Source of the DNA: Actinoplanes sp. L3-i22
GTDB taxonomy: Bacteria > Actinomycetota > Actinomycetes > Mycobacteriales > Micromonosporaceae
Assembly (NCBI RefSeq): GCF_019704555.1
Contig: NZ_AP024745.1
Coordinates: 1,980,001-2,044,000, forward strand
Length of the DNA: 64,000 nucleotides
Reading direction: 5' to 3'
In this document: piece by piece, positions 25,016 to 56,330 of the stretch
Layout: the number at the start of each line of letters is the position of its first letter
Position numbering within the stretch: the first letter of the stretch is position 1
The notes under the pieces: generated by a model
Databases searched by the model: none
Told to the model about the DNA's origin: nothing
The model's input: the letters and a program-made list of their open reading frames with translations, nothing else
Made by a program: the position numbers and the translations under genes

Positions 25016-25164
25016 TTCTTAAAACCGCAACCACCCACGGACATCGCCCTGGAGGGCTTCGCGTCCTGGGCGCGCCAGCGCCCTGCGAAGCCCGCAAGGG
25101 TCCCCGCGGGAGCGACGATCAGTTATCGGCCGCAGCCGAGGCAATGAAGAACTTGAATTTGATC
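25016..25164 (-). repeat. Dispersed structured element, copy A
   Basis: About 149 bp of the five-copy family, in reverse orientation. The central stem is perfect: 25054-25062 pairs with 25085-25093 (GGGCTTCGC/GCGAAGCCC) around an inner GGGCGC/GCGCCC-type hairpin. It ends about 50 bases before the histidine phosphatase start, so it could sit in that gene's leader. Confidence 0.85.
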
Positions 25165-25215
25165 CTCACGCCCCGCACCTTCCCGGCGACACACCGTCAC
25201 AGATAGGGTCCGATC

Positions 25216-25911
25216 ATGGCGACAGTCGCAGAACTGATCCTGATCAGACACGGGCAGAGCCTCGCGAACGTCCTCTTTCCGGAGGCCGATGCGCAGGAGC
25301 TGCTGGAGGTCGCCCTGAGCGGCCGCGATGCGGATGTCCCGCTGACCGATCTCGGTCAGCAGCAGGCCCGAGCGGTAGGCGCCTGGCTGGCCGCCCTGCC
25401 GGGCGATCAGCGCCCGGAGACGATTGTCACTTCGCCATATCTGCGGGCAAAAGAAACCTGGCGGCTAGCCGCGGAAGCCTCGGGCCTGGCGACCCCGGAG
25501 CCCCGGACGGACGACCGGCTCGTCGACCGCCTGCTCGGTGAGCTGGAGATGATGACCCGCGCGGCGATCGCGGCGCGGTATCCGGAGGAGGCCGAGCGGC
25601 TGTCCGAGTCCGGCATGTGGGAGTACCGGCCGCCCGGCGGCGAGTCGTTCGCCGACATCCGGGTGCGGCTGACCGCCTTCCTCGACGACCTGCACCGCGA
25701 GCACGCCGACCGGCGTGTGGTCGTGGTCGCGCACGACGCCGTGGTGCTGATGACCCGTGCGGTGCTCGAGGATCTGGACTGGGCCGAGCTGGCCGCGCTC
25801 GAACAGGCCGAGGGGTCGGTGCGGAATGCGTCGATCAGCCGGTTCGTGAACGACGGAAACAGTCTCAAACTTGACCGATACAACGTGATCGACCACCTGC
25901 CACCGGCCTGA
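25216..25911 (+). CDS. Histidine phosphatase (phosphoglycerate-mutase-like)
   Basis: The 231-residue protein carries the phosphohistidine motif LIRHGQSLAN near residues 8-17 and the second catalytic histidine in VVVVAHDAVVLM near 177. Other family residues are the arginine in TSPYLRAKETW near 78 and the acid in GELEMM near 110. Family members remove phosphate from small metabolites or sugar phosphates; this one's substrate is not evident. The ATG start is preceded by repeat element A. Confidence 0.92.
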   Translation: MATVAELILIRHGQSLANVLFPEADAQELLEVALSGRDADVPLTDLGQQQARAVGAWLAALPGDQRPETIVTSPYLRAKETWRLAAEASGLATPEPRTDDRLVDRLLGELEMMTRAAIAARYPEEAERLSESGMWEYRPPGGESFADIRVRLTAFLDDLHREHADRRVVVVAHDAVVLMTRAVLEDLDWAELAALEQAEGSVRNASISRFVNDGNSLKLDRYNVIDHLPPA

Positions 25912-25973
25912 ACCATCGAAACGACATCGACGAGTATCTTCCAAAGATTTCTTTGCATGGATAGGTTGGGTCG

Positions 25974-26510
25974 ATGCCCGCACCCTCCGGCGCGCCCGGT
26001 CCGCACACGTTGCGTGGCCTGGCGCACCCGCTCCGCGTCCGGATCCTCGCCCTCCTCCGCGAGCACGGCGCCTCCACCGCCACCCGCGTCGCGGAGCGGC
26101 TCGGCGAGTCGTCCGGAGCGACCAGCTACCACCTGCGCCAGCTCGCCGCCTATGGCTTCGTCGAGGACGTGCCGGGGCGCGGCGCCGGCCGGGAACGCTG
26201 GTGGCGGACCGTCGCGCGGCGCAACGACACCGCCCACCACCTGCGGGCGGCCGCGGCCGACGGCTTCCACCGGCTGCACGAGTTCCTCGGCGGCGCCGAC
26301 GACATGCCACCCGAGCTGCTGGCCGGGGTCGCGATCGACGACCTCACCCTGCGGCTGACCCCGGCCCAGGCGGTGGAGCTGGTGTCCCGGATCCGCGCGC
26401 TGCTCGGCGACCTGCCCACCGAGCCCGGCAGCGAGGAGTTCGTCGTGCAGTGGCAGGTGTTCCCGCGGCTCGCCCCGCGGAGGCAGGCGTCGAGGAGGAA
26501 CCAGCGGTGA
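25974..26510 (+). CDS. ArsR-type winged-helix transcriptional regulator
   Basis: The 178-residue protein has a winged helix at residues about 10-75 (LRGLAHPLRVRILALLREHG, then TRVAERLGESSGATSYHLRQL as the recognition region) and a C-terminal alpha domain of about 90 residues. No arsenic-type cysteine pair is visible, so the signal is unknown. The GTGA overlap with the downstream transporter indicates that it controls, and is co-made with, the efflux gene. An ATTT-rich leader with CAAAGATTTC near 25942-25950 is the only AT-rich promoter-like stretch. Confidence 0.88.
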   Translation: MPAPSGAPGPHTLRGLAHPLRVRILALLREHGASTATRVAERLGESSGATSYHLRQLAAYGFVEDVPGRGAGRERWWRTVARRNDTAHHLRAAAADGFHRLHEFLGGADDMPPELLAGVAIDDLTLRLTPAQAVELVSRIRALLGDLPTEPGSEEFVVQWQVFPRLAPRRQASRRNQR

Positions 26511-27751
26511 GGCGCGGACTGGCCGGACTCCTCACGGCCGAGGCGATCTCCCTGCTCGGCAGCCGGATCACCTTCGTGGCGCTGCCCTGGCTGGTGCTGA
26601 CCACCACCGGGTCGGCGCTGATGGCCGGCGTCGCCGGGTTCGCCGAGATGCTGCCCTACGTGCTCGCCGGCCTGCTCGGCGGCCCGATCGTGGACCGGGT
26701 CGGCCCTCGCTCGACCGCGGTCGCCGCCGACGTGGCCAGTGTGCTCGCGGTCAGCGGCATCCCGATCCTCGCGGCGACCGAGAACGTGTCGTACCACACC
26801 CTGCTCGGCCTGATCGCCGTCGCCGGAGCGCTGCGCGGCTTCGGTGACACGGCGAAGCGCGCCCTGCTGCCCCGGGTGATCGCCGGAGCCGGCCTGAGCA
26901 CCGAGCGCGGCACCACCCTCTACGACGGGATCAGCCGCGCCGCCACCCTGCTCGGCCTGCCGCTGGCCGGCCTGCTGGTCGCCGCGGTCGGCCCGGCCCG
27001 GGTGCTGCTGGTCGACGCGGCGACGTTCGGCGTCTGCGCCATCCTGATCTCGGTCTACGTGCGCACCGGAGCGACCGCCCCGGTCCCGGCCGGGGAGGAC
27101 GAGGGCGGCTACGCGGCGGCGCTGCGCTGCGGGTTCCGCTACGTCCGCCAGGATCGTCTGATCATCGGCATCATGTCGCTGCTGTTCGCGACGAACCTCT
27201 TCGACCAGGCGTTCGCGACCGTCTTCGTCCCGGTCTGGGTCCGCGAAGGCCCGCACGGCCCCGCCGCGTTAGGTGTCCTGGGCAGCGCTTTCGGCGCCGG
27301 CGCGGTGGCCGGCAACATCCTGTGGACGATCGTCAGCCCCCGCCTGCCCCGCCGCGCCACGTTCGCGGTCTGCTTCCTGCTCGGCGGCCCGGCGCAGCTG
27401 TTCGCCCTGGCCCTGTCCGACACGTTGTGGCTGGTCCTGGTGGTGGCCGCGGTCGCCGGCGCGCTGATGTCCACGATCAACCCGATCCTGCTGGCCGCCG
27501 TCTACGAACGAGTCCCGTTCCGCGTCCAGGGCCGCGTCATGAGCGTCCTCATCGCCTTCTCCTGGGCGGGCATCCCGCTGGGCGGCATCCTGGGCGGCTG
27601 GGCCGCCGACGAGCTCGGGCTGCGCACGGGCGCATTGCTCGCCGGAATCGGCTATCTCGCGGTCACCCTCGGCCCATTCCTCTTCTCCGCGTGGCATTCC
27701 CTCGACGAACATCGCGTGATCACCACAAAGACGCTGGTCACCGCAAAATAA
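26507..27751 (+). CDS. MFS transporter (drug-efflux-like)
   Basis: The 414-residue protein has twelve hydrophobic segments and the MFS A-like loop GGPIVDRVGPR near residue 59. It resembles the macrolide/multidrug MFS group. The GTG start lies inside the stop of the ArsR-type gene. An earlier frame from 26201 belongs to the regulator's shadow. The TAA stop is directly followed by repeat element B. The substrate is unknown; the regulator pairing suggests inducible export. Confidence 0.9.
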   Translation: MRRGLAGLLTAEAISLLGSRITFVALPWLVLTTTGSALMAGVAGFAEMLPYVLAGLLGGPIVDRVGPRSTAVAADVASVLAVSGIPILAATENVSYHTLLGLIAVAGALRGFGDTAKRALLPRVIAGAGLSTERGTTLYDGISRAATLLGLPLAGLLVAAVGPARVLLVDAATFGVCAILISVYVRTGATAPVPAGEDEGGYAAALRCGFRYVRQDRLIIGIMSLLFATNLFDQAFATVFVPVWVREGPHGPAALGVLGSAFGAGAVAGNILWTIVSPRLPRRATFAVCFLLGGPAQLFALALSDTLWLVLVVAAVAGALMSTINPILLAAVYERVPFRVQGRVMSVLIAFSWAGIPLGGILGGWAADELGLRTGALLAGIGYLAVTLGPFLFSAWHSLDEHRVITTKTLVTAK

Positions 27752-27906
27752 TCAAAATCAAGGTCCAGAAATTCATTGCCTCGGCTGCGGCCAATAACTG
27801 ATCGTCGCTCCCGCGGGGACCCTTCCGGTCTTTGCTGGCCGCTGGCGCGTCCAAAACGCAAAGCCCTACAGGGCGACGTCCGAGGGTGGTCCCGCTTCAA
27901 AAGAAC
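27750..27906 (+). repeat. Dispersed structured element, copy B
   Basis: The most diverged copy. It begins at the stop codon of the MFS gene. The stem arms 27827-27835 (GGTCTTTGC) and 27858-27866 (GCAAAGCCC) pair at eight of nine positions; two arm positions are changed together relative to copies C and D, keeping the pairing. The inner hairpin has decayed. Confidence 0.82.
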
Positions 27907-28324
27907 CCCGCCACCCGCCGGCCACTCCCGGCCCAGCCGCGCCTCACCCCGGGCCGGCTCCCGGAGACCCGCAAACACGACGAGACATCCCTGAGGCCCA
28001 GCCGAACAACGCGAGCGTCGCATGATGCGAACGAGATCGCCGGGCCGACCAGGAGTTTCTCGCTCGTCTGAGCTGACGGTAATTCGGTGGCCGGGCTGCT
28101 GGAGCGGCCCGCATGATGACGGCGTGATCGAGCTGAAGGCCTACCCCGCTGTCCTGATCGCTGCGGCCGAACGGCCCGCGCGACAGCAGCCGGCCGTCCG
28201 GGAAACGGCGGTGCCGAAGCAGCTGTCATGAGCGCCCGGTTCTCGAGCCGGGTTGCGGTCATGAATGGCTGGTCGTTTGCCGGGGAGCGGTCATGAGTGG
28301 CTGGTCGTTTGCCGGGGGGCGGTC
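27752..28324. other. Gene-free stretch after the MFS gene
   Basis: It holds element B, an unremarkable stretch (27910-28230), a CCCGG/CCGGG dyad near 28236-28254 and the 32-bp duplication in front of the LysE gene. No credible coding frame was found. Confidence 0.55.
28257..28320 (+). repeat. 32-bp tandem duplication carrying extra start codons
   Basis: Two copies (28257-28288 and 28289-28320), each beginning GGTCATGA, stand directly before the real GGTCATGAGC at 28321. Each carries its own ATG (28261, 28293), but 32 is not a multiple of three, so each ATG is in a different frame. Confidence 0.88.
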
Positions 28325-28927
28325 ATGAGCGCCGCGTTTCTGGCCGGGGTGGTGGCCGGGTATGGCATCGCGGTGCCCGTCGGGGCGATCGGGGCCCTGA
28401 TCGCGGGGCTCAGCGCCCGGACGTCGCTGCGGGTCGGGGCCGCCGCCGGGATGGGTGCGGCCACCGCGGACGGGATCTACGCCGGCATCGCGGTGGCCGG
28501 GGGAGCGGCGGTGGCGAGTGTGATCGCGCCGGTCGCCGAGCCGCTGCGCTGGTTCGGGGCGGTCGTGCTGCTCGGGTTCGCGGCGTGGACCGCGTGGGGC
28601 GCGATCCGTGGGCCGGGAAGTGGCGAGCGGGCGGACCGGCCGACCACGGCGTTCCGTGCGTATGCCGGGATCCTCGGACTGACCCTGCTCAACCCGGCCA
28701 CCGTGATCTACTTCGCGGCGCTGGTCCTCGGCAGCGGTGGTGCGGGCGGCGGTGTCTGGTTCGTGCTGGGCGCGTTCCTGGCCTCGGCGAGCTGGCAGCT
28801 CCTGATCGCCGGCGGCGGTTCGCTGGTGGGCCGCCTGCTGACCGGTCCCCGGGGTCGCCTGCTCACGGCGTTCACGTCCAGCCTGGTGATCGCCGTCCTG
28901 GCGATCCGGCTGGTCACCGGCTCCTGA
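28325..28927 (+). CDS. LysE-family amino-acid exporter
   Basis: The 200-residue membrane protein has about six hydrophobic helices and the LysE pattern: an N-terminal GYGIAVPVGAIGALIAGLSAR, then the conserved LTLLNPATVIYFAAL near residue 118. LysE/RhtB proteins export amino acids or other small amines; the substrate is unknown. The start at 28325 is chosen because the protein-like sequence begins there; the upstream 32-bp duplication supplies two decoy ATGs. The last codons and the stop are repeated several times downstream. Confidence 0.86.
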   Translation: MSAAFLAGVVAGYGIAVPVGAIGALIAGLSARTSLRVGAAAGMGAATADGIYAGIAVAGGAAVASVIAPVAEPLRWFGAVVLLGFAAWTAWGAIRGPGSGERADRPTTAFRAYAGILGLTLLNPATVIYFAALVLGSGGAGGGVWFVLGAFLASASWQLLIAGGGSLVGRLLTGPRGRLLTAFTSSLVIAVLAIRLVTGS

Positions 28928-29070
28928 CCGGCCCGGCTGGTCATCGGCTTCTGACCGGCCCGGCTGGTTACCGGCTTCTGACCGGCCCGGCTGGTTACCG
29001 GCTCCTGACCGGCCGGCTGATCACCGGCTCCTGACCGGCCCGGCTGGTCACCGGCTCGCGGCGATCCGGC
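28910..29070 (+). repeat. 27-bp tandem repeats duplicating the LysE gene's end and stop codon
   Basis: Units starting at 28910, 28937, 28964, 28991, 29017 and 29044 repeat the sequence that encodes RLVTGS and the TGA. One unit is 26 bp. Most units keep a TGA, so the array is a chain of copied gene ends. A more diverged copy follows to about 29092. Confidence 0.9.
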
Positions 29071-29145
29071 TGGGCATCGGCTGCTGACCGATCCGGCACC
29101 CGGTTCGAGGCCCGGATCAAAGGGTTGCGCGCGAGGATTCGTACC

Positions 29146-30333
29146 TTATAGGTGTTTTGATGCTTCTCGGATTGACAGCGGGGACAGGACGGCGGCGTGG
29201 GCGGTCAGGTAGGAGCGGACCGCGGCCGGGTCGGTGCGGGCGTAGTGGCGCAGCGCCCAGCCGATCGCCTTGCGGACGAAGAAGTCCCGGTGGCCGGCCT
29301 GCCGGGTGCAGTAGGTGAACAGCCGGGTCGTGTCGGTCTCCGTGCCGTAGTGCAGCTGGTGCAGGATCGCCGTGCGGACCAGCCACAGGTTCGCCGAGCC
29401 TGACCAGTCGTCCATCCGGCTGGTCAGGGCCGGGTGGCGGCGGACCAGGCCGCCGACGAAGCGGGTGGCGAGCGGGTCGATCGTGTCCCACCAGGACTTC
29501 GTGGTGATCAGCTCGTCGGCGACGGCGAGGAAGCCCGGGCCCGGGACCTTGACGTGGGTGACCAGGTAGTCGCAGGCGAACTGCTGGTACTCCCGCTCGT
29601 CGCGGGCCCAGCAGGCGCGGGCGATCGTGGCGAGCTCGGCCTCGGTCGGCCGCGGCAGGCCGGTCAGGGTGGCCCGGGCCGCGGATCGCCGCGCGCCGGC
29701 GCTCAGGCCGAGGAACGGGAACTGGTCCCGCATGTACGCCTCCATCGCCGGAGCACGCACGTCGTCCCGCCCGGCCTCGAAGTCGTTGGTCAGCCGCCCC
29801 ATCAACGTCGTCGCCAGCCCAGAAGAACCGGCAAATCGACCAAAATCACCCGGCTCGGCAAGTCGCGTGGGCCCGGCAGGCGCCGCGGGCTCAGCCCCAT
29901 CGGAGTCGGCCAGGCCGGCCGAGGTGGCGGTGCTGGCCGGGCCGGCCGAGGTGGCGGTGCTGGCCGGGCCGGCCGAGGTGGCGGTGCTGGCCGGGCCGGC
30001 CGAGGTGGCGGTGCTGGCCGGGCCGGCCGAGGTGGCGGTGCTGGCCGGGCCGGCCGAGGTGGCGGTGCTGGCCGGGCCGGCCGAGGTGGCGGTGCTGGCC
30101 GGGCCGGCCGAGGTGGCGGTGCTGGCCGGGCCGGCCGAGGTGGCGGTGCTGGCCGGGCCGGCCGAGGTGGCGGTGCTGGCCGGGGCGGGTGAGGTGGCGG
30201 TGCTGGTCAGGGCGGCTGCGGTGGCGGTGCCGCCCAGGGCGGCCGAGGTGGCGGAGCTGGCCGGGCCGTCAGCGGCGGCCGGGCGGGCGGCATCGGCAGC
30301 GGCGCCGGAAGAGCCGGAAGAGGACGTCCTCAT
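29146..30333 (-). CDS. DNA alkylation repair protein (AlkD-like) with repetitive N-terminus
   Basis: The C-terminal 220 residues are an AlkD-type all-helical HEAT-like domain. Family features are MEAYMRDQFPFLGL, the helix REYQQFACDYL, the aromatic TTKSWWDTIDPLA and the end RKAIGWALRHYARTDP. AlkD proteins excise positively charged alkylated bases. In the long form (395 residues) the first 180 residues are Ala/Ser/Thr/Gly-rich, with about ten copies of a nonapeptide of the type STATSAGPA. A start at ATG 29800-29802 would give a normal 218-residue AlkD, so the long start may be wrong. However, the 27-bp period keeps the frame. Confidence 0.78.
   Translation of the reverse strand: MRTSSSGSSGAAADAARPAAADGPASSATSAALGGTATAAALTSTATSPAPASTATSAGPASTATSAGPASTATSAGPASTATSAGPASTATSAGPASTATSAGPASTATSAGPASTATSAGPASTATSAGPASTATSAGLADSDGAEPAAPAGPTRLAEPGDFGRFAGSSGLATTLMGRLTNDFEAGRDDVRAPAMEAYMRDQFPFLGLSAGARRSAARATLTGLPRPTEAELATIARACWARDEREYQQFACDYLVTHVKVPGPGFLAVADELITTKSWWDTIDPLATRFVGGLVRRHPALTSRMDDWSGSANLWLVRTAILHQLHYGTETDTTRLFTYCTRQAGHRDFFVRKAIGWALRHYARTDPAAVRSYLTAHAAVLSPLSIREASKHL
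29921..30217 (-). repeat. 27-bp tandem array at the AlkD-like gene's 5' end
   Basis: Eleven nearly identical 27-bp units start at 29921 and every 27 bases to 30191; degenerate units continue to about 30260. The unit encodes a nine-residue repeat on the minus strand and is also open on the plus strand. Confidence 0.92.
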
Positions 30334-30365
30334 GCCGCGGATCCTGCCACCGTAGTCTGACAAGA

Positions 30366-30998
30366 ATGGGTGAACGGCCGGCCGCCGGCGGCGGGAAATG
30401 GGTGGACGTCGCACCGGAGCGGCTCGAACGCTGGCTGGTGAACTTCGCGGGCCGGCACGGGCCGTACCGGGAAACGGGTTTGACCTTGATCGCCGAGGAC
30501 GGCGCGGAAGCGACGCTGCAGGCACCCCCGGGCGCGGGCGAGCCGGCGACCGTGGACGAGCTGATCGCCGCGGCGCACGCGAAGCGCCGGATCGGTTTGC
30601 TGCTCGCGCGCAAAGGGGCGGTCGCGGCCGGCGTCGCCGACGGCACCGAGCTGGTCTCCTCCAAGGTGGACACTCACTATGTGCAAGGACGGACAGCCGC
30701 CGGTGGCTGGTCGCAGCAGCGCTTCGCGCGCCGCCGCGACAATCAGGCCAAGGCGGCCACCGCGGACGGCGCCGGCATCGCCGGACGCATTCTTCTTCCC
30801 GAGGTACGCACGTTGACCGCGCTCGTGACCGGTGGCGACCGCGCCGCCGTCGACGCGATCCTGGCCGACCGCGCCCTCGCGCCGCTCGCCGAACTGCGCG
30901 CCGGCCGCCTGCTGGACGTCCCGGAGCCACGCCACGTCGTCCTGGTCAGCGCGGTAGCGATGGCCCGCGCGGTCCCGATCCTGATCCGAGAGCCGTAA
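30366..30998 (+). CDS. VLRF1-type peptidyl-tRNA release factor (acVLRF1)
   Basis: The 210-residue protein matches the actinobacterial Vms1-like release factor 1 family. The key loop GGWSQQRFARRR lies near residues 112-123; in the Vms1/eRF1-like fold the glutamine region acts at the peptidyl-tRNA ester bond. Such proteins are thought to free stalled nascent chains during ribosome rescue, so this is a candidate quality-control factor acting on 50S-nascent-chain complexes. That role is from family knowledge. The ATG at 30366 is 32 bases from the divergent AlkD-like gene's long start. The stop lies in a short tandem repeat. Confidence 0.85.
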   Translation: MGERPAAGGGKWVDVAPERLERWLVNFAGRHGPYRETGLTLIAEDGAEATLQAPPGAGEPATVDELIAAAHAKRRIGLLLARKGAVAAGVADGTELVSSKVDTHYVQGRTAAGGWSQQRFARRRDNQAKAATADGAGIAGRILLPEVRTLTALVTGGDRAAVDAILADRALAPLAELRAGRLLDVPEPRHVVLVSAVAMARAVPILIREP

Positions 30999-31030
30999 GA
31001 GAAGCGAGCCGTAAGAGAAGCGAGCCGTAG
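30989..31030 (+). repeat. 16-bp tandem repeat covering the VLRF1 gene's stop codon
   Basis: The unit GAGCCGTAAGAGAAGC starts at 30989 and 31005, with a partial copy at 31021. The gene's TAA stop lies in the first unit and is copied in the second. Confidence 0.88.
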
Positions 31031-31040
31031 AAACAGAGAT

Positions 31041-31079
31041 CCGGCCGCCGTCCCGCGCCAGGTGCGGGTCGGCGGCCGG
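31041..31079. terminator. Bidirectional hairpin between convergent genes
   Basis: Perfect 10-bp arms CCGGCCGCCG (31041-31050) and CGGCGGCCGG (31070-31079) flank an inner CCCGC/GCGGG stem. It can end both the VLRF1 gene and the zinc-peptidase gene. Confidence 0.7.
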
Positions 31080-31101
31080 AAGTCACCGCGGGTGCAACGA
31101 G

Positions 31102-32025
31102 TCAGTCACCCTCTTTGACAGCCCCCGGAGCAAAGGTGTCGCACTGCTTCGGATCGCCCGAGTTGTACCCGGTACTGAACCACTTCTGCCGATCCGCCGA
31201 CGTCCCGTGCGTGAACTCGGCCGGGTTGATCGTGCCACCGCCACGTTGCTGCAGTGTGTCGTCACCGATCTGCCCGGCGGTCTGGATGCCCTCCTGGATG
31301 TCCGTCGCGGTCAGGCTCTTGAAGATCTTCTGGCCCTTGGCGTCGGTGGTGCTGGTCGCGCCCTTGGCCCAGGCCCCGGCATAGCAGTCGGCCTGCAGCT
31401 CCAGCTTGACCGACTCGAGGTTGGCCTGGTCCGGATTCGAGTTCTGCGCCTGGCGCATCTTCGCCTCGGTGCCGAGCAGGTCCTGCACGTGGTGGCCGTA
31501 CTCGTGGGCCAGCACGTACGGCTGCGCGAACTCGCCCGGAGCGCCGAGCTCCTTCGCCAGCTGCTGGTAGAAGGTCAGGTCGATGTAGACCTTGTTGTCG
31601 GCGGGGCAGTAGAACGGGCCGACGCCGGAGTCGGCGGCGCCGCAGCCGGTGCTGACCCGATTCGAGAAGATCTTGGTGGTGGCCTTCTCGTACTGCTTGC
31701 CGAACGCCTTGGGCAGCTCGGTGGCCCAGTATGCCTGGATCGAGTTGACGTAGAGGACGTTGCGGCAGTCCATCTGCTTGGTGGCGTCCGACTGCTTGCA
31801 CTCGGACTCGATGGCCGCGTTGTCGCTGCTCGACGAGCCGCTGCCACCGCCCAGGTTGTTGATGCCGAAGTACCCGCCGACCAGGGCGAGCAGCACCGTG
31901 ACGATGATGCCGGTCAGGCCACCACCACCGATCGGCAGGCCGCCGATGCCGCCTCCGCCACCGCCCGATCCACGAGCGTCCTCGACCTGACTGGTGTCGA
32001 TCTCGGCGTTCTCATTGAGTTCCAT
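31102..32025 (-). CDS. Membrane-anchored neutral zinc metallopeptidase (YpfJ-like)
   Basis: The 307-residue protein has a Gly-rich head, one transmembrane helix at about residues 37-58 (TGIIVTVLLALVGGYFGI) and an extracellular domain. The zinc motif LAHEYGHHVQD lies near residue 172 and the third-ligand region LELQADCYAGAW near 208. The length and motifs fit the YpfJ/putative neutral zinc metallopeptidase family, whose substrates are unknown. Paired cysteines suggest disulfides outside the cell. It is divergent from the ABC-F gene. Confidence 0.93.
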   Translation of the reverse strand: MELNENAEIDTSQVEDARGSGGGGGGIGGLPIGGGGLTGIIVTVLLALVGGYFGINNLGGGSGSSSSDNAAIESECKQSDATKQMDCRNVLYVNSIQAYWATELPKAFGKQYEKATTKIFSNRVSTGCGAADSGVGPFYCPADNKVYIDLTFYQQLAKELGAPGEFAQPYVLAHEYGHHVQDLLGTEAKMRQAQNSNPDQANLESVKLELQADCYAGAWAKGATSTTDAKGQKIFKSLTATDIQEGIQTAGQIGDDTLQQRGGGTINPAEFTHGTSADRQKWFSTGYNSGDPKQCDTFAPGAVKEGD

Positions 32026-32227
32026 GCCGTCCTCACTTCGCCACGGTTGCCAGGCGTGTACCCGATGATCTTGCCCGCTAATCGAGTGGGAGGTCGCACC
32101 GCCCGCCGGGTAGTATGGCCGCGTGCTGCTCTGCGAAGGCTGACCTGCCCAGCGCCGACCGTCCATCGGGATGGCCGGCGTTTTACTGCGCCCTGAGTCA
32201 GCCCCATCATCGAGAGCGAGAATTTTC

Positions 32228-33832
<1,605 letters not shown>

Positions 33833-42240: not shown

Positions 42241-42386
42241 CAAGATCAAATTCTTTATTGCCTCGGCTGCGGCCAATAACTGACCGTCGCTCCCGCGGGG
42301 ACCCTTCCGGGCCTCGCAAGGGCGCGGGGCGCCCAGAACGCGAGGCCCTACAGGGCGATGTCCGCGGGTGGTAGCGGTTTCAAAGG
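42241..42386 (+). repeat. Dispersed structured element, copy C
   Basis: This is a near-consensus copy. The stem 42309-42317 (GGGCCTCGC) pairs perfectly with 42340-42348 (GCGAGGCCC), and the inner GGGCGC-GGG-GCGCCC hairpin is intact. It lies between the TetR gene and the RIO kinase gene. Confidence 0.87.
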
Positions 42387-45297: not shown

Positions 45298-45452
45298 CTT
45301 TGATCTTCGGGTTGAACCGCAACCACCCGCGGACGTCGCCCTGGAGGGCCTCGCGTTCTGGGCGCCCCGCGCCCTGCGAGGCCCGGAAGGGTCCCCGCGG
45401 GAGCGACGATCAGTTATCGGCCGCAGCCGAGGCAAAAAAGATCTTGAAGTTT
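45298..45452 (-). repeat. Dispersed structured element, copy D
   Basis: A near-consensus reverse copy fills most of the space between the convergent TPR and acnA genes. The stem 45346-45354/45376-45384 (GGGCCTCGC/GCGAGGCCC) is perfect, and the element ends carry complementary GATCTT/AAGATC. Confidence 0.87.
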
Positions 45453-45514: not shown

Positions 45515-48301
<2,787 letters not shown>

Positions 48302-48368: not shown

Positions 48369-48391
48369 TCGGCTGTGCCGTATCAGCTAAA

Positions 48392-48411: not shown

Positions 48412-48508
48412 CCATCGCAAGGCGGGGTGCACGTCCTGATCCTCGCAGCCGGGCCGGGTCCACCGGGCACGGGTTTGCGTTCGTCGATATCCGGGCACGT
48501 TCGCGCGC

Positions 48509-48898
48509 ATGACGACCCAGGCGGATCTGGATCAGCTCACCGACTTCTTCGGCCGGTACGGGGCCGCGCTCACCACCGGCGACATCGCCGTCATCGCGGG
48601 CTGCCACGCGCTGCCCGGGATGGTGGTGGCCGACTCGTACAGCTTCACGTTCAGCTCACCGGCCGCGGTGGCGCTGTCGTTTCTGGGCGCCGCTCCCACG
48701 TATCGGGATCAGCGGATCGTCGCGGCCCACGCGCAACTGCACGACGTGCAGCGGGTCTCGACCGCCCTGTCACTGGTCGAGGTCGAGTGGGAATACCTGG
48801 ACAGCGGTGGTGGAGCGGTGTCCGGCGAGCGCTACCGGTACCTGATCCGGACCGGCGCGGACGGGCCGCTGATCACCACGGTGATCGCTTCCCGCTGA
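48509..48898 (+). CDS. NTF2-like small protein
   Basis: The 129-residue protein shows the SnoaL/NTF2 pattern: helix LDQLTDFFGRYGAALTTGDIAVIAGCHALP, then YSFTFSSPAAVALSFLG and several strands (VEVEWEYLDSGG, YRYLIRTGADG). No catalytic residues can be assigned. It lies just before the pullulanase gene and may be co-transcribed with it. Function unknown. Confidence 0.78.
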   Translation: MTTQADLDQLTDFFGRYGAALTTGDIAVIAGCHALPGMVVADSYSFTFSSPAAVALSFLGAAPTYRDQRIVAAHAQLHDVQRVSTALSLVEVEWEYLDSGGGAVSGERYRYLIRTGADGPLITTVIASR

Positions 48899-48923
48899 AA
48901 ACGTCGTATCCCGGTGCGACGAT

Positions 48924-51900
48924 GTGGCGGTGTCGTGGCTGATCGTTCACTACCACCGTCCTGACGGCGACTACTCGGGCTGGTCGCTCCACGCGTGGGG
49001 GGATGTCGCCCCCGGCCAGGAAGTGACCTTCCCCGGTGGGCAGCCGTTCGCCGGGGAAGACGCGGACGGGCGTTTCGCCTGGGTGCGGCTCGCCCCCGGG
49101 GCCACCGAGGCGGGCTTCGTCGTGGTGCACTCCGCCGGCGCCAAAGACGTCGACCTCGACCGGGCCGTTGACGTCCGCACCCAGCGGGAGATCTGGCTGC
49201 GCTCCGGTGACCAGCGGATCCATTCCGCGCCCGGGACGCCGCCTGCGCCGCCTGCGGCGGACGAAGCCGTGATCCACTACCGGCGACCGGGCGGGGACTA
49301 CTCCGGGTGGGGCCTGCACTGCTGGGAGGGCGTTCCGCTCTCGATCAAAACCTATTGGCGTACGCCGTTGGCACCCGCCGGCTTCGACGGGTTCGGCGCG
49401 GTGTTCCGGGTGCCGCTCAAGCCGGACGCCGTCGGCCTGCGGTACGTGCTGCACCACGGTGAGGAGAAGGACCTCCCCGACGACCAGCGCCTCGACCTGA
49501 CCGTCACCCGGGAGGTCTGGCTGGTGGCCGGCGAGGTCGAGCCGATCCGCCCGGAGCTGGGCACCCTCGGCCCGGAGCTGGACCCGGCCCGCTCGCACGC
49601 CGTCTTCCTGGACCGGACGACCATCGCGCTGCCCGAGTGGCTCGCCGCCCGGGCCACCACGTTCGAGCTGCTCAGCGGCAAGACCGCGCTGCCGCTCACG
49701 CCCCGGCCGGGCGGGCTGTTCCAGGCGCAGAGCCGCCGCTTCCCGCACCTGCGGGCGTACCGGGCCTATGCCGTCCGCGACCTGGCCGACGTCGAGCTCG
49801 GCGAGCTGCTGCGCGACCGGCTGCTGATCGAGGGCCGGGTCACCGGCGGCGAGGTGACCGCCCGGACGTCGGTGCAGCTCGCCGGCGTCCTCGACGACCT
49901 GTACCTGGAGGCCGCCGACGCCGACCTGGGCCTGACCCTGGACGTGGACGTCCCGCGGCTCGCGGTCTGGGCGCCGACCGCCCGGGACGTGCGGCTCGAG
50001 CTCTACCGCGACCCGTCGGCGGAGCCGCGCCTGATCCCGATGGACCGGGACGACCTCAACGGCGTGTGGTCGGTTCCGGTCAAGCGCAAGTGGCTCGGGC
50101 GGTACTACCGGTACCGGGTGGAGGTCTGGCAGCCGGCCGCCCAGCGGATCGTGACGACCAGCGTGACGGATCCGTACTCGGTGTCGCTGGCCGCCGACTC
50201 CACCCACAGCCAGCTCGTCGACCTGTTCGGCGACCCGGAGCTGGCCCCGCCCGGCTGGGCCGGGCTGACCAAGCCGGACCCGGTCGCGCCGGCCCGGATG
50301 CAGATCGCCGAGGTCTCGGTCCGGGACTTCTCGATCTTCGACGGCTCGCTGCCGCCCGAGGAACGCGGCACGTTCCTCGGCTTCACCCGGCCCGGCTCGG
50401 ACGGGATGCGGCACCTGCGCTCGCTCGCCGAGGCCGGGCTCACCCACCTGCACCTGCTGCCGGTCAACGACTTCGCGACCGTCCCGGACCACCGCGCCGA
50501 CCAGGCCCGGCCCGCCTGCGACCTGGCCGCCTTCCCGCCGGACTCGCCCGAGCAGCAGCAGGCCGTGACGGCCGTCGCCGACCGGGACGGCTACAACTGG
50601 GGCTACGACCCGTGGCACTGGACGACGCCGGAGGGCAGCTACGCCACCGACCCGGGCGGGACCGCGCGGATCCGGCAGCTGCGCGCCGCGGTGGCCGCGC
50701 TCAACGGGGCCGGGCTGCGGGTGGTGCTGGACGTCGTCTACAACCACACGATGGGCGACGGGCTCGACCGGTTCAGCGTGCTCGACCGGATCGTCCCGGG
50801 CTATTACCACCGGCTGCTCGCCGACGGGAGCACCGCCGAGTCGACCTGCTGCCCGAACACGGCGCCGGAGCACATGATGATGGGCAAGCTCGTCATCGAC
50901 TCGCTGGTGACGTGGGCCAAGGCGTACAAAATCGATGGTTTTCGGTTTGATCTGATGGGTCATCACCCGCGGTCGAACATCCTGGAGGCGCGGCTCGCCC
51001 TCGATCACCGCGTCGACCACGGGCGGGACATCTGCCTCTACGGCGAGGGCTGGAACTTCGGCGAGGTCGCCTACGACGCGCGGTTCGCCCAGGCCACCCA
51101 GGTGAACATGGCCGGCACCGGGATCGGCTCGTTCAACGACCGGATGCGCGACGCGGCCCGTGGCGGCGGCGCGTTCGGCGACGACCCGGGCGTGCCCGGC
51201 TTCGCCACCGGGCTCGGGTCGCGGACCCCCGGGTTCCTGCACGACCTGATCAAAGTCGGACTTGCGGGCGGGCTGGCGACGTATCGGTTCGTCAACCACG
51301 ACGGGGTGGAGCGCAGCGGGGCGCAGGTCGACTACAACGGCTCGCCGTGCGGGTACGCCGCCTCGCCGGACGAGACGGTCAACTACGTCGACGCGCACGA
51401 CAACGAGATCCTGTACGACGCGATGGCGTTCAAACTGCCGGTCACCACCCGTGCGGTCGACCGGGCCCGGATGCAGGTGCTCGCGCTGGCGCTGGTGGTG
51501 CTCGGGCAGGGGGCCGGGTTCGTGGCGCTCGGCAGTGAGCGGCTGCGGTCCAAGTCGCTCGACCGGAACTCGTTCAACTCGGGGGACTGGTTCAACCAGA
51601 TCCGCTGGGACCCGGGGCAGGGCAACGGGTTCGGCGTCGGGCTGCCGCCGCACGCCGACAACGCCGACAAGTGGGACTTCGCCCGGCCGTTGCTGGCCGA
51701 CCCGGCGTTCGTGCCCAGCGCCGAGGTGATCAACCTGGCCGCGTCCCGGTACCGGGAGCTGCTCCGGATCCGCCGCTCGTCCCCGGTCTTCGGGCTGCCC
51801 ACCGCCGAGGAGGTGCAGCGGCGGGTGACGTTCCCGCTCGGCGGGCCCGGCGAGACCCCCGGCGTGATCGTGATGTGCCTGGACGGGACCGGCCTCGACG

Positions 51901-52115
51901 AGCGGTGGCGGCGGCTCGTCGTGGTCTTCAACGCCACCGACGAGCCGACCTGCCAGACCGTGCCGGACGAGGAGGGGCTGCGCCTGCACCCGGAGCTGAC
52001 CGCCTCCGCCGACCCGCTGCTGCGTGGCGCCTCGGCCGTCGACAAGCTCGACGGCGCCGAACTGACCGTCCCCGCCCGGCAGGTCGCGGTGTTCGTGGCC
52101 GACCTCGCCGGATGA
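48924..52115 (+). CDS. pulA: Pullulanase-type alpha-1,6-glucosidase
   Basis: The 1063-residue protein cleaves alpha-1,6 links in pullulan, glycogen or limit dextrin. Two starch-binding PUD/CBM41 repeats open it (VHYHRPDGDYSGWSLHAW near residue 8 and the similar HYRRPGGDYSGWGLHCW near 113). A GH13 core follows: VLDVVYNHT near 600, DGFRFDLMGHH with the nucleophile aspartate near 670, YGEGWNFGE with the acid/base near 706 and VDAHDNE near 822. There is no signal peptide, so it probably acts inside the cell on glycogen. The start is a GTG at 48924 or 48930. Confidence 0.92.
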   Translation: MAVSWLIVHYHRPDGDYSGWSLHAWGDVAPGQEVTFPGGQPFAGEDADGRFAWVRLAPGATEAGFVVVHSAGAKDVDLDRAVDVRTQREIWLRSGDQRIHSAPGTPPAPPAADEAVIHYRRPGGDYSGWGLHCWEGVPLSIKTYWRTPLAPAGFDGFGAVFRVPLKPDAVGLRYVLHHGEEKDLPDDQRLDLTVTREVWLVAGEVEPIRPELGTLGPELDPARSHAVFLDRTTIALPEWLAARATTFELLSGKTALPLTPRPGGLFQAQSRRFPHLRAYRAYAVRDLADVELGELLRDRLLIEGRVTGGEVTARTSVQLAGVLDDLYLEAADADLGLTLDVDVPRLAVWAPTARDVRLELYRDPSAEPRLIPMDRDDLNGVWSVPVKRKWLGRYYRYRVEVWQPAAQRIVTTSVTDPYSVSLAADSTHSQLVDLFGDPELAPPGWAGLTKPDPVAPARMQIAEVSVRDFSIFDGSLPPEERGTFLGFTRPGSDGMRHLRSLAEAGLTHLHLLPVNDFATVPDHRADQARPACDLAAFPPDSPEQQQAVTAVADRDGYNWGYDPWHWTTPEGSYATDPGGTARIRQLRAAVAALNGAGLRVVLDVVYNHTMGDGLDRFSVLDRIVPGYYHRLLADGSTAESTCCPNTAPEHMMMGKLVIDSLVTWAKAYKIDGFRFDLMGHHPRSNILEARLALDHRVDHGRDICLYGEGWNFGEVAYDARFAQATQVNMAGTGIGSFNDRMRDAARGGGAFGDDPGVPGFATGLGSRTPGFLHDLIKVGLAGGLATYRFVNHDGVERSGAQVDYNGSPCGYAASPDETVNYVDAHDNEILYDAMAFKLPVTTRAVDRARMQVLALALVVLGQGAGFVALGSERLRSKSLDRNSFNSGDWFNQIRWDPGQGNGFGVGLPPHADNADKWDFARPLLADPAFVPSAEVINLAASRYRELLRIRRSSPVFGLPTAEEVQRRVTFPLGGPGETPGVIVMCLDGTGLDERWRRLVVVFNATDEPTCQTVPDEEGLRLHPELTASADPLLRGASAVDKLDGAELTVPARQVAVFVADLAG

Positions 52116-53329
52116 TCGACGAAGCCCGCGAGCACATCGCGAACGTCGTCGCGCGCGGCCGGGTCGACTGCCTCACGATCGTCGACGACACCGTGGAGTA
52201 CCTGCACGGCGAGGGCGACCCGGCGGAGATCCGGGCGCTCGCCTGGCAGCTGGCCGGGCCGGCGTTCGAGGCGCACCTGGCCGCCCAGGCGGGCTGGCCG
52301 GAGCGGACCGACAGCGATCGGGTCACCGCCGCGTTCCGGGCGCTCGACGCGGCCGGGATCGTCGCGCGGGAGGAGTTCGCCTGCTGCCGGAACTGCGGGG
52401 TCACCGAGATCCGGGACGAGGCTTCGACCGGGCGGGGGTACGCGTTCTATCACCTGCAGGACGCGGAGGGAGCGGCTCGGGGCGAGGGGCTGCACATCGC
52501 CTTCGGCCCGTTCGCCGGCAGCGCCTCCGCGAGCGAGGAGATCGGCGCGGAGGTCGCGGCCGCACTGCGGGCCGAGGGGCTCGACGTGTCGTGGGACGGT
52601 TCGGCGGGCCGGCGGATCAGCGTGCGGATGGCCTGGGCCCAGCGCCGGCACGGGCGGATGGCGGCGTACCTGACCGAGAGTCCGGCCGCGTCGCCGGTGA
52701 TCGAGGTCGAGGTGATCCGCGGGCGTGCGGTCCCCGGCCTCGGCGGGCCGACGCCGGCGGTCCAGCTCGAACGGCTGGTGCTGCCCTGGCTGCCGGCCGG
52801 GGTGACGGTGCGGCTCACCTCGCCGGGCGAGGCGTCGGCCTCCCCGGGCGGGGTGTCGGCCTCGCCAGGCGGGGCGTCGGCCGAGGTGCATCGGGAGTTC
52901 GACCGGCTGGTCGGCGGGGACGGCCGCCGGGTGTCGAGATTCGCCGCGCTGCGGCTCCTGGACCCGTCGGCCGGGTCGGAGCCGGGCGACGCCGAGCCGG
53001 CGCTGCTGGACGTGACATTTCAGAGCATGCCGAGCGGACCGCGGGAGAGTCAGGCCCGGCCGCTGACCCTGCCGGAGACCCTCGACGTCCTGCGGAGGCT
53101 GCCGACCGGGACGAACTCCTGGCTGGCCGCGGGCAGCCGCTCCGACGAGCTGGTGCAGATGCGCTGGGAGGACGGGCAGCTCTGGCTGGAGACACCGGAC
53201 GTCGCCATCTCGGCCTCGATCGGCAAATACGCGACCCTGGCCGAGGCCGAGCAGGTGCTGACGATTCTGGCCGAGCAGGATCGGGTGGCGATCCGCGAAC
53301 TGCCCGACGTGATCACCAAGCCCTGGTGA
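52112..53329 (+). CDS. Conserved actinobacterial protein, DUF6891-like
   Basis: The 405-residue protein has an N-terminal acidic domain (MIDEAREHIANVVARGR) with a vicinal cysteine group FACCRNCGVTEI near residue 89 and YAFYHLQDAE near 111. A variable linker with SPGG repeats follows near 240-265, and a C-terminal alpha/beta domain contains ELVQMRWEDGQLWLETP near 346. The first part fits the DUF6891 family, which I assign with limited confidence. The cysteine motif may bind metal. The ATG overlaps the pullulanase stop by four bases, so the two are co-translated. Confidence 0.72.
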   Translation: MIDEAREHIANVVARGRVDCLTIVDDTVEYLHGEGDPAEIRALAWQLAGPAFEAHLAAQAGWPERTDSDRVTAAFRALDAAGIVAREEFACCRNCGVTEIRDEASTGRGYAFYHLQDAEGAARGEGLHIAFGPFAGSASASEEIGAEVAAALRAEGLDVSWDGSAGRRISVRMAWAQRRHGRMAAYLTESPAASPVIEVEVIRGRAVPGLGGPTPAVQLERLVLPWLPAGVTVRLTSPGEASASPGGVSASPGGASAEVHREFDRLVGGDGRRVSRFAALRLLDPSAGSEPGDAEPALLDVTFQSMPSGPRESQARPLTLPETLDVLRRLPTGTNSWLAAGSRSDELVQMRWEDGQLWLETPDVAISASIGKYATLAEAEQVLTILAEQDRVAIRELPDVITKPW

Positions 53330-53408
53330 CCGCCGGGCTCGACGCGCTGCGCTAGATTGCGCCGCGTGGCACGCCGGTGGTCGGCGGGCCGTCGAAGCGG
53401 AGGTCGTG

Positions 53409-53930
53409 GTGCGGTTCGAGCGTGCCCTGTGCGCGTTGGCCCTCGTCGGAGCGGTTGCCGGGTGCAGCTCGTCGTCCGACGACGCGAAAATCACCGATCC
53501 GGGCGCGTCGGCCCCGGCGTCGGCCGGAGCCCCGGTCGTGGCCGGGTCCGCGCCGGCCTGGACCGAGCCGGCGTCCTACTCGTTCGTGCTGACCCGGGGC
53601 TGCGACGCGGCCAAGCCGGTCGGCAAGTACCAGGCGACCGTGCAGGGCGGCAAGATCGCCAACTACGGCCGGGTGGGTGGCTCCACCGCCGCGCCGGACC
53701 CGTCGGCGGACGTCGACCTGGGGCCGGTCACCGGGGACGAGGGCGAGGAGATCGAGGTTCCGACGCTGGCGGAACTCGTCGAGATGGCGCAGACGAGCGC
53801 CGAGGACGGCGGTCAGGTCTCCACCGAGTACGACTCGGGCGACGGCCACCCGGTCAAGGTCTCGATCAACGTGACCGGCGAGGCGGACGGCACCGAGTGC
53901 TGGATCGTCTCCGACTACAAGGCCGGCTGA
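53409..53930 (+). CDS. Lipoprotein, DUF6174-like
   Basis: The protein has about 173 residues. The N-terminus is a lipoprotein signal: hydrophobic ALCALALVGAVAGC with lipobox VAGC and the cysteine near residue 19, then a Ser/Asp/Ala-rich linker. The mature domain (YSFVLTRGCDAAKPVGKYQATVQGG near 57 and VPTLAELVEMAQ near 117) matches the DUF6174 pattern of small secreted proteins. Two cysteines in the mature domain may form a disulfide. GTG 53406 or 53409 are both possible starts. Function unknown. Confidence 0.82.
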   Translation: MRFERALCALALVGAVAGCSSSSDDAKITDPGASAPASAGAPVVAGSAPAWTEPASYSFVLTRGCDAAKPVGKYQATVQGGKIANYGRVGGSTAAPDPSADVDLGPVTGDEGEEIEVPTLAELVEMAQTSAEDGGQVSTEYDSGDGHPVKVSINVTGEADGTECWIVSDYKAG

Positions 53931-53971
53931 CCCCGGCCCGTCGGACGCCGGCCGGGCTCGATCAGGCCCGG

Positions 53972-54457
53972 CTACAGGGCGGGATGGTCGAGGAACGCAG
54001 CCAGGAAGAACTCGGCTCCCGCCCCGAACGCGCCGGCCAGCGCGAACCCGATCGCCGCGTCGACCGGCCCCGGCGCGTGCTCGGCGGCCCAGTCGACCCG
54101 CACCTCGCCGGTGTCCGCGATGGTGAAGTCACCGACCGGGAAGCCGTCCCGCAGCAGCCGGCTGCTCTCCGGCGTCCGTGGCCGGTACACGTACTGATGG
54201 CCCTCGTGCTCGGCCACCACCCGGTAGGAGAACCGCGACCACCGCCCGGCCCCCGGCCGCAGCGTGACCGGCAGGTCGTCGACCATCATCCGCAGGTGCA
54301 GCCGGTCCCGCGTGCCGATCGGGACGTGCGGCTGCAGCTTCGGATCATGGACCCGCTCCACGACCGCGGTGTGCCGCCCGGCCCCGGCCCGGACCTCGAC
54401 GGCCACCACGCCGTCGCTCCGCCGGACGTCGACGATGAAGGCGCGGGCATCGGTCAC
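53972..54457 (-). CDS. Conserved protein of unknown function
   Basis: The 161-residue protein is mainly beta strands (VVAVEVRAGAGRHTAVVERV; FSYRVVAEHEGHQYVYRP), with a C-terminal hydrophobic stretch IGFALAGAFGAGAEFFLAAF that is too short and polar to be certain as a membrane segment. No family is recognised. The start is a GTG at 54455-54457. It stands alone between a lipoprotein gene and aminopeptidase P. Confidence 0.6.
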   Translation of the reverse strand: MTDARAFIVDVRRSDGVVAVEVRAGAGRHTAVVERVHDPKLQPHVPIGTRDRLHLRMMVDDLPVTLRPGAGRWSRFSYRVVAEHEGHQYVYRPRTPESSRLLRDGFPVGDFTIADTGEVRVDWAAEHAPGPVDAAIGFALAGAFGAGAEFFLAAFLDHPAL

Positions 54458-54615
54458 GGCGGCTCCCCGTTACGCGAGGTCGGCAGGGTCCGCCAATCCT
54501 CGCATCACCCCGCAAACCCCGCACCCGGACACGAGCCACCCGCAACGCCACGCCGCGCTGTGGCACCGCCCGGTGCCGAGTGCCCACCGGCGCCCGGCAC
54601 CGACACCCGGAACCG

Positions 54616-56088
54616 TCAGCCGGGCAGCCGGGGCCCGGCCTCCCGCTGAGCCGCCAGCCACGTCTCGACCTCACCCGACGTACGCGGAAGGCCGTCCGAG
54701 AGATTGCGGCAGCCATCGGCCGTGACCAGGACGTCGTCCTCGATCCGGATCCCCATGCCGCGCAGCTCCTCGGGCACCAGCTCGTCCTCCGGCTGGAAGT
54801 AGAGCCCCGGCTCCACCGTCAGCACGTAGCCCTCCCCGAGCGCCCCTTCCCGATAGGTCTCGTTCCGCGCGTGCGCGCAGTCGTGCACGTCGATCCCGAG
54901 CATGTGCCCGAAGCCGTGCAGCGTCCACCGCCGGTAGACCGTGCTGTCCTCGGCCATCGCCTCGTCCACGCTCACCGGCAGCAGGCCCAGGTCGTTCAGC
55001 CCCTCGGCGAGCACCCGCATGCACACCTGGTGCACGTCCTTGAAGAGCACGCCGGGCCGGATCGCGTCCATGCCGGCCTGCTGCGACGCGTACACGATTT
55101 CGTAGACCTGGCGCTGCAGCGGCGTGAACGTGCCGGAGACCGGGACCGTGCGGGTGATGTCGGCGGTGTAGAGGTTCGGCCCCTCCACACCCATGTCCAT
55201 CAGCAGCAGCTCACCGGGCGTGGTGACGCCGGTGTTCCGCACCCAGTGCAGGATCGTGGCGTGCGCGCCGGCGCCGACGATCGAGGTGTAGCCCACGTCG
55301 TTGCCGTCGTGCCGCGCCCGCAGCCCGAAGACGCCCTCGAGCAGGCGCTCCTTGACCCCGCGGTCGGCCGGCAGGACCCGGGCCACGTCCTCGAAGCCGA
55401 GCACGGTGGCGTCGATCGCGCCCTGCAACTGGGCGATCTCCCACTCGTCCTTGACCAGCTTGAGCTCGGAGATCGTCCAGGCCAGCTCACGGTCCCGCGG
55501 GCGGGCCCGGTCCGGCTCGTAGGCCAGGATCGCCCGGTCGACGTTCGGGTCGAGGCCGCGCAGCACGCGGGTGCGGCCGGGCGCGGACAGGGCCAGGGCG
55601 GAGCCCAGGTGGCCCAGCGAGGCCGTCTCCAGGCCCAACTCGGTCGATTTCTCGCCGAGGGTGTGGGTGCGGCCGACCCAGAGCTCGCCGTTGCGGTCCC
55701 GGAAGAACCGGTCGGTCTCCTTGGAATTGCGCTCCCGGGTGAAGACCACCGCCTCGTGCCCGGACGCGGTCGGGTGCAGCACGAGCACACTGTCCGGATC
55801 GCGGTCGCCGGTCAGGTAGAAGAAGTCGCTGCCCGGCCGGAACGGATAGTCCGTGTCGTTGGCGCGGACCTTCTCGTTCCCGCTCGGGATGATCAACGTC
55901 TCACCGGGGAACGCCTCGGAGAGGGCCGCCCGGCGCTTCGCATAGTTCGGCACCTCGGGCACCGGCGCGACGGAGATCGGATCCTCCCGCCAGCCGGTGC
56001 GCATGAACTGCAGAAACGCTTCCGGGAAGGCGGGGTCGTGCGACTCCGTCTTCGGCGCGGGCTGCGCGCCGCCGTCCTTCTGCGCCAT
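54616..56088 (-). CDS. pepP: Xaa-Pro aminopeptidase (aminopeptidase P)
   Basis: The 490-residue protein removes N-terminal residues that precede proline. The N-terminal creatinase-like domain starts after residue 25 (FMRTGWREDP) and contains FPGETLIIPSGNEKVRANDTDYPFRPGSDFFYL split over 65-95. The C-terminal pita-bread domain carries the metal ligands in LLMDMGVEGPNLYTADITRT near 300, HGFGHMLGIDVHD near 396 and EPGLYFQPEDELV near 430. No signal peptide is present. The start is an ATG at 56086-56088; element E lies about 80 bases upstream of it. Confidence 0.95.
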   Translation of the reverse strand: MAQKDGGAQPAPKTESHDPAFPEAFLQFMRTGWREDPISVAPVPEVPNYAKRRAALSEAFPGETLIIPSGNEKVRANDTDYPFRPGSDFFYLTGDRDPDSVLVLHPTASGHEAVVFTRERNSKETDRFFRDRNGELWVGRTHTLGEKSTELGLETASLGHLGSALALSAPGRTRVLRGLDPNVDRAILAYEPDRARPRDRELAWTISELKLVKDEWEIAQLQGAIDATVLGFEDVARVLPADRGVKERLLEGVFGLRARHDGNDVGYTSIVGAGAHATILHWVRNTGVTTPGELLLMDMGVEGPNLYTADITRTVPVSGTFTPLQRQVYEIVYASQQAGMDAIRPGVLFKDVHQVCMRVLAEGLNDLGLLPVSVDEAMAEDSTVYRRWTLHGFGHMLGIDVHDCAHARNETYREGALGEGYVLTVEPGLYFQPEDELVPEELRGMGIRIEDDVLVTADGCRNLSDGLPRTSGEVETWLAAQREAGPRLPG

Positions 56089-56171
56089 TGTGGGGTGCCT
56101 CCGTTCGCCAGCTGTAACCCGACGTTACCGCTTGCCCCCGACGAAAAGCAGGGCCGGTGGTTCGCCCCCAC

Positions 56172-56330
56172 ATTCAAGATCAAATTCAGGCCCAAACCCA
56201 AATTCTTCATTTCCCCGGTCCGCCGGGGTGCGGATCGTCGCTCCCGCGGGGACCCTTCCGGGCTTCGCAAGGGCGCGGGGCGCCCAAAACGCAAAGCCCT
56301 ACAGGGCGACGTCCGTGGCTGGGCACGGTC
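56172..56330 (+). repeat. Dispersed structured element, copy E
   Basis: The core and stem are kept: 56270-56278 (GGGCTTCGC) with 56291-56299 (GCAAAGCCC), eight of nine pairs. The 5' part is replaced by a different sequence that still forms a hairpin, CCCCGG-TCCG-CCGGGG at about 56213-56228. Confidence 0.83.

Follow-up and report, generated by a model that had tools for sequence, protein, structure and literature searches.

A dispersed repeat family with a covarying arm, found mostly behind genes in Actinoplanes genomes

The DNA considered here is a stretch of 64,000 nucleotides (the window, in whose coordinates positions are given) from the chromosome of Actinoplanes sp. L3-i22 (contig NZ_AP024745.1, positions 1,980,001 to 2,044,000), a single contig of 12,014,766 bases that is numbered G000 in our genome set and comes from a closed genome (PMC8530027). 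The window carries copies of an element that an initial annotation had described as five-copy, dispersed, intergenic and bearing a hairpin under compensatory selection. Sequence comparison and a covariance model both placed all five copies where, and in the orientation in which, they had been reported, the model with E-values (E) from 1.6e-34 to 1.9e-30, followed by a next match of E 0.008 in the window:

25016..25164, minus strand: copy A (model match 25021-25147)
27750..27906, plus strand: copy B, beginning at the upstream gene's stop codon (model match 27773-27899)
42241..42386, plus strand: copy C (model match 42255-42381)
45298..45452, minus strand: copy D, behind a terminator-like hairpin of the minus-strand gene to its right (model match 45313-45438)
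56172..56330, plus strand: copy E, followed by a 19-bp tandem array (model match 56207-56332)

The number five holds for the window and not for the family. The core GATCGTCGCTCCCGCGGGGACC, searched with up to three mismatches, has 199 matches genome-wide (98 and 101 on the two strands), whereas the reversed 22-nt core has none in the whole genome at the same tolerance, and the family in L3-i22 is thus about 200 copies strong, far above chance. A search that returned only the five copies, which the initial annotation had named as speaking against its proposal, is not what was obtained. For closer comparison we assembled 119 distinct L3-i22 copies out of the top BLAST matches plus the first 100 core places listed, a sample biased towards well-conserved copies since best matches are listed first.

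In the orientation used in the initial annotation, the element consists of an A+T-rich leader, a 5' block, the near-fixed motif (18-22 nt), a long arm composed of P3, P4 and P5, and a 3' block that terminates near GCGG, altogether about 125 nt without the leader. The leader is made of A+T-rich NNTCAA-like hexamers, TCAA or TTGA being present in it in 100 of 114 copies, and the 5' block has two main forms in L3-i22 (94 and 25 of 119 copies, as judged by column 35). In copy B these parts lie as follows:

27752..27774, plus strand: leader, A+T-rich NNTCAA-like units, from the stop codon to the core
27800..27821, plus strand: near-fixed motif GATCGTCGCTCCCGCGGGGACC
27827..27835, plus strand: 5' strand of P4, the 9-bp stem (read on the plus strand)
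27836..27853, plus strand: inner hairpin P5
27858..27866, plus strand: 3' strand of P4 (read on the plus strand)

The short complementary ends GATCTT/AAGATC noted earlier turned out not to be general: GATC is present on the left, in the 55 nt before the core, in 98 of 114 copies and on the right, in the 62 nt after the core, in 23. No general terminal inverted repeats were found across the 114 L3-i22 copies. Comparison of the 114 right flanks revealed further repeats behind part of the copies. One of these, itself dispersed, contains a long inverted repeat, GGCTGGCGCTCACGG ... CCGTGAGCGCCAGCC; it lies behind the copies at loci L064, L068, L011, L053 and L087 and was observed solely as a distinct repeat beyond some of the copies. 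Of 114 copies, 13 have DnaA-box-like TTRTCCACA motifs within 300 nt to the right of the core, 18 motifs in all, whereas 412 pieces of 300 nt drawn at random from these loci gave two. Several of the motifs are part of another dispersed repeat adjoining the element; in the window they stand at 24912, 56687 and 56704. The window also has tandem arrays at 29820-30305, 22924-24480 and 56289-56684 (units of 9 or 27, 15 and 19 bases), and tandem duplications of the element's right end were seen at a few places (L052, L192). An apparent sister family at L112, L115 and L122 resembles the element in its 5' half and core and has a different 3' arm.

So far the family has been found almost only in Actinoplanes, with copy numbers that differ strongly between species. 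An 18-nt core, allowing one mismatch, is present in 34 of 67 genomes of the genus, in numbers from 193 and 101 down to 1; since the reversed control core has one match in each of two of the 67, single core matches may be due to chance. The search of other Actinoplanes genomes proposed in the initial annotation was rewarded, in that the covariance model finds the family in 56 of the 67, counts being taken from the best 52 scored places per genome (fuller scoring gave 43 model matches in G060, 35 in G043 and 97 in G027). In a draw of 300 genomes of the bacterial family, the model again matches 56 within the genus, and two of 233 from outside it match weakly, both belonging to one other genus, and in a pattern scan of named GTDB genomes all of the matches listed (80 of 119) are in Actinoplanes or Paractinoplanes. 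No Rfam (release 15) family reached its gathering score in the window, and a known Rfam family, which had been named as another unfavourable outcome, was rejected. A permissive Rfam scan of four loci listed 12 matches with E from 0.028 to 9.7, far below gathering scores; one of the sub-threshold matches, to sR49, overlaps the left end of the copy at L002 by a few bases. A phage or plasmid origin was rejected, since copy B had no match among 72,556 plasmid and 50,697 phage records and a 25-position pattern had no exact match in IMG/VR. Short listings from the open PubMed Central literature contained no account of the family, and the accessible part of the Actinoplanes SE50/110 genome paper offers only a remark on short repetitive elements (PMC3364876).

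In the case of the hairpin arm there is good support for selection on a folded nucleic acid. The paired changes first seen in the window are real: at the fifth pair of the stem copies A, B and E have T-A where C and D have C-G, and at the seventh B has T-A, copies A, C and D have C-G and copy E has C/A. In 45 chosen copies of many genomes, 91.0% of the cells of the proposed structure are paired and 109 are doubly changed, compared with 32.3 +/- 4.3 after shuffling of the partners and with 6 to 43 in slid versions of the structure. In a set of 61 sequences, four P3/P4 pairs lay above every value of 12 null alignments simulated on a tree (the covariation null being our own tree-based simulation), as did four further column pairs, of which two are off-register neighbours of the stem pairs and two belong to the 5' block. 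These alignments of 61 rows (A2) and 45 rows (A3) were hand-chosen; among 30 loci 17 were used, and 13 were omitted as apparent chance matches, sister family, N-containing, or own or duplicate copies. A set of 326 rows, which was gathered with a loose pattern, may include chance matches and the sister family, and has a tree built from the same columns as were tested, gave two stem pairs above all values of 10 null alignments and six column pairs in all with E < 0.5. The arm thus covaries above both tree nulls and shuffles, with an excess of paired substitutions, in agreement with the compensatory selection originally suggested, while the P1 and P2 helices have little compensatory support. We rejected pairing of the 5' tail with the loop of P2, which looked perfect in the 61 rows (C-G in 55, G-C in 6) but has E 1.6, and whose best column is held in 75% of the 326 rows, and we dropped a 5' hairpin because common subtypes break its pairing.

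The wobble pairs indicate that the arm probably folds on the strand opposite the usual upstream gene. Tree events departing from a Watson-Crick pair in P4 led to A.C 72 times and to G.T twice (as read), with 10 and 2 such events in P3 and 9 and 3 in P5, and the A.C events are spread across several stem positions; transitions in unpaired columns lack such a bias (C>T 204, G>A 225, T>C 213, A>G 173). Since A.C on the strand as read is G.U on the complement, it would be the complementary strand that folds. The arm is also more stable on the minus strand in 137 of 144 thinned copies and in all 114 of 114 L3-i22 copies, a difference that is partly due to invariant bases in bulges and loops and should not be counted as independent evidence for each copy. 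Arm stability is about equal in every gene context.

Gene context was assigned to 118 copies with a home-made gene caller trained on 24 open reading frames (ORFs) of the window. The earlier description of the element as always intergenic is right for 115 of them and wrong for three, which overlap a predicted gene. Ninety-four of the 115 lie behind a co-directional gene, 63 in convergent gaps and 31 in tandem sense gaps, the rest being tandem antisense (12), divergent (8) or without a downstream gene in view (1). Convergent gaps make up 35 of 226 element-free gaps of at least 30 nt in the regions studied of A. cyaneus NBRC 14990 (G014) and 6 of 28 in the window; in G014 itself, two of 33 copies overlap a predicted gene and 15 of 30 with both neighbours are convergent. 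There is also a sense bias, since 41 copies in the 63 convergent gaps are nearer the stop of the sense gene (binomial p 0.02) and tandem gaps hold 31 sense vs 12 antisense copies (p 0.005). The median distance from stop codon to core is 38 nt; in 37 of the 94 cases it amounts to 7-25 nt, and where it is 50-100 nt a terminator-like hairpin is commonly found in between, as judged by eye. The short distances leave little room for a promoter, and thus independent small RNAs, one of three guesses in the initial annotation, are not supported; another, transcript ends, agrees with the data as to position, i.e. gene ends, and in that respect alone. Among 40 genes whose stop lies no more than 30 nt from a core, 13 end in TAA, vs 6 of 59 window genes (p 0.009), and from this excess the leader seems to supply the gene's stop codon in some cases. 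On the L3-i22 chromosome, the 5' pattern has 78 exact matches, 72 of them at 0-4 or 8-12 Mb and six at 4-8 Mb, and five DnaA-box-like motifs cluster at about 2.4-3.0 kb, which together suggest that copies thin out away from the likely origin.

At loci L127, L134 and L137 (genomes G034, G043 and G049) the element is upstream of a putative TrmH-type methyltransferase gene, named from its sequence alone, and at L127 and L137, as read from their ORFs, it is also behind a presumably rplT-like gene. The core of the G043 copy at this site is unlike most other copies printed.

Comparison with G014 gave 15 sites at which both genomes have a copy, oriented alike (both flanks align at 13 of them, one flank at two), the shared fraction being biased upward because most G014 regions were chosen around G014 copies. 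An ATAACTG block is present in 90 of 115 L3-i22 copies vs none of 33 G014 copies, and at the 15 shared sites in 10 L3-i22 partners and no G014 partner. At 13 of 15 sites the L3-i22 copy is closer to other L3-i22 copies than to its G014 ortholog, and at 10 of 15 the G014 copy is likewise closer to those of its own genome, with a mean identity of 0.78 to the ortholog and of 0.88 and 0.81, respectively, to own-genome copies. Thus, copies at shared sites mostly carry the signature of their own genome, and concerted evolution can be traced site by site. Strand-specific wobble in a dispersed arm and genome-wide signatures at shared sites are, in our view, uncommon features.

At the place of copy A, the leader and the start of the element are present in G014, where the contig ends inside it, and in A. 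liguriensis NRRL B-16723 (G031), where the sequence turns to N inside it, and the element was not seen in eight other relatives. It is in none of 10 relatives at the place of copy B; for copy C it stands at matching junctions in G014, G040 and G031 and not in seven other relatives, and copies C, D and E are absent from a syntenic stretch of G060. The segment between copies C and D is inverted in G014 and G031 relative to L3-i22, with an element at a junction in each. Such an arrangement would fit recombination between inverted copies, the order in the outgroup being different as well. Two L3-i22 sites inspected in G014 are empty, and sites without the element exist in relatives, with flanks too diverged to fix the element's ends.

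Profile searches for a mobilising enzyme were made for two classes. The Y1 transposase (PF01797), which 21 of the 67 genomes of the genus contain, has no match in L3-i22 and is also absent from G001, G007, G027, G029, G037, G039, G042, G043 and G060, all with more than 20 model matches. Reverse transcriptase (RVT_1, PF00078) is present in 45 of 67 genomes, L3-i22 having one match (42.7 bits, over the cut-off), and none was found in the copy-rich G060 (43 matches), G038 (at least 52) and G058 (23); spread by reverse transcriptase was rejected, there being no consistent link between PF00078 and copy-rich genomes. G060, a single contig with 43 model matches and neither a Y1 nor an RVT_1 match, argues that neither class is the general mobiliser, unless the enzymes have diverged beyond the reach of the profiles. 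Truncation on one side, as retro-elements show it, was not supported: judged by eye in the first 100 listed places per pattern, the 3' and 5' patterns are mostly beside a core.

We lean towards the view that the five repeats belong to a genus-specific, non-autonomous dispersed family similar to repetitive extragenic palindromes (REPs) or miniature inverted-repeat transposable elements (MITEs), homogenised within genomes and retained at gene ends. On our best reading, the element works like a REP or MITE family and yet is a separate, new family without a known enzyme. A MITE- or REP-like nature was the best of the three guesses of the initial annotation (some 200 copies, species-variable number, gene ends), and it falls short in the missing Y1 and general terminal inverted repeats; the folding strand, the preference for gene ends and the homogenisation within genomes had not been anticipated there. 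A trans-acting factor would recognise the arm as one folded strand, either RNA or single-stranded DNA, this strand presumably being antisense to the usual upstream gene; copies would spread or be converted within a genome and may survive mostly at gene 3' ends, whether because they do least harm there or because they help mRNA 3' ends. Several results weigh against such a family. Further pair types are not above shuffles, 98 of 500 of which reach the observed number, and tree events in P1 show the reverse bias (A.C 9, G.T 56), which we could not reconcile with P4 in a single model. Neither a target duplication nor a clean empty site could be demonstrated at sites whose exact ends are not fixed, and the Y1 and RVT_1 profile searches gave no mobilising enzyme. 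In addition, the copies are old and often shared between genomes, and together with the 72 of 78 pattern matches at 0-4 or 8-12 Mb this means that recent mobility is not shown.

Of the other explanations, a functional mRNA 3'-end element, in which the sense copy ends transcription or protects the mRNA 3' end under site-wise selection, is the one to be taken most seriously, if only as a tentative possibility. It would account for the co-directional upstream gene of 94 of 115 copies (median 38 nt from the stop), the 41 of 63 convergent copies nearer the sense stop, the 31 vs 12 tandem copies, the many sites common to L3-i22 and G014, and the core, 5' and 3' patterns staying mostly together. However, some copies are already behind a terminator-like hairpin (by eye), no T run follows the arm in the copies printed, arm stability is about the same in all gene contexts, the P4 wobble bias indicates the other strand, and 21 of the 115 copies lack a co-directional gene upstream. 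That strand bias could instead mean an opposite-strand terminator or barrier, with convergent or antisense transcripts folding the minus-strand arm and stopping before the neighbouring gene: P4 and P3 tolerate A.C on plus (G.U on minus), the minus arm is the stabler in 137 of 144 thinned and 114 of 114 L3-i22 copies (with a contribution from constant bases), and 63 of 115 copies are between convergent genes. Yet in 39 of 115 the downstream gene is on the element's strand, hence no convergent feeder, no uninterrupted T run follows on the minus strand, and copies are nearer the sense than the antisense gene, so we regard this scenario as unlikely.

Rather doubtful, too, is the more specific proposal of a mobile element, a parasite resembling REPs or short interspersed nuclear elements, which would be spread as a single folded strand to gene 3' ends by an enzyme of neither the Y1 nor the RVT_1 class, its copies being kept alike by conversion. 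A genuine REP family mobilised by a RAYT (Y1) transposase would fit the gene-end and convergent placement described for REPs in the available part of their account (PMC3733652) as well as the strongly species-dependent copy number, but PF01797 is missing from ten genomes with more than 20 matches even though 21 of 67 genomes have one, and the unit measures about 125 nt, not 20-40, with no GTAG tag in its consensus, making it very improbable. As for chance similarity or an assembly artefact, contig breaks and N runs inside copies in draft relatives are all that points that way; it was rejected as having a negligible probability given the closed genome (PMC8530027), the 199 vs 0 core matches, the covariation and the many separate assemblies.

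Whatever its nature, a covarying, strand-asymmetric gene-end marker in about 200 copies across a genus is a good natural experiment. The element may also promote inversions in genomes of antibiotic producers, to judge by one apparent case, and its mobiliser, if found, may be an enzyme outside the Y1 and RVT_1 classes.

Among known systems, REPs are 20-40 bp palindromes with a terminal tag, falling into GTAG and CGTC super-families, as the accessible part of their description has it (PMC3733652). Within that same part, REPs and the element are alike in being high-copy and intergenic, in lying near 3' ends of convergent or unidirectional genes (a location that our copies share) and in varying in number between species, and CGTC REPs, like the element, are without a dedicated transposase (PMC3733652). 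The element differs from REPs in its length of about 125 nt, its leader, its near-fixed 18-22 nt motif and its covarying multi-part arm, and although CGTC occurs in the motif, it is without the following 8-9 bp palindrome starting with A/T pairs and the CCA-like tail. It thus has neither the 20-40 bp tagged palindrome nor the Y1 in the genome that membership in the REP/RAYT system implies, nor the terminal inverted repeats of MITEs, whereas covariation above phylogenetic expectation, as expected of a conserved structured RNA, was found for its arm. Set against the Actinoplanes element by description, the repeats bcr1-bcr18 of a different taxon, the Bacillus cereus group, are, in the available portion of their account, likewise group-specific and interspersed, some MITE-like and some with conserved secondary structure, and about half are found in transcripts, often in untranslated regions (UTRs) (PMC3446304). 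The structured bcr10 and bcr18 are placed there in 5' UTRs, in contrast to the Actinoplanes element, which is usually located behind gene 3' ends (PMC3446304).

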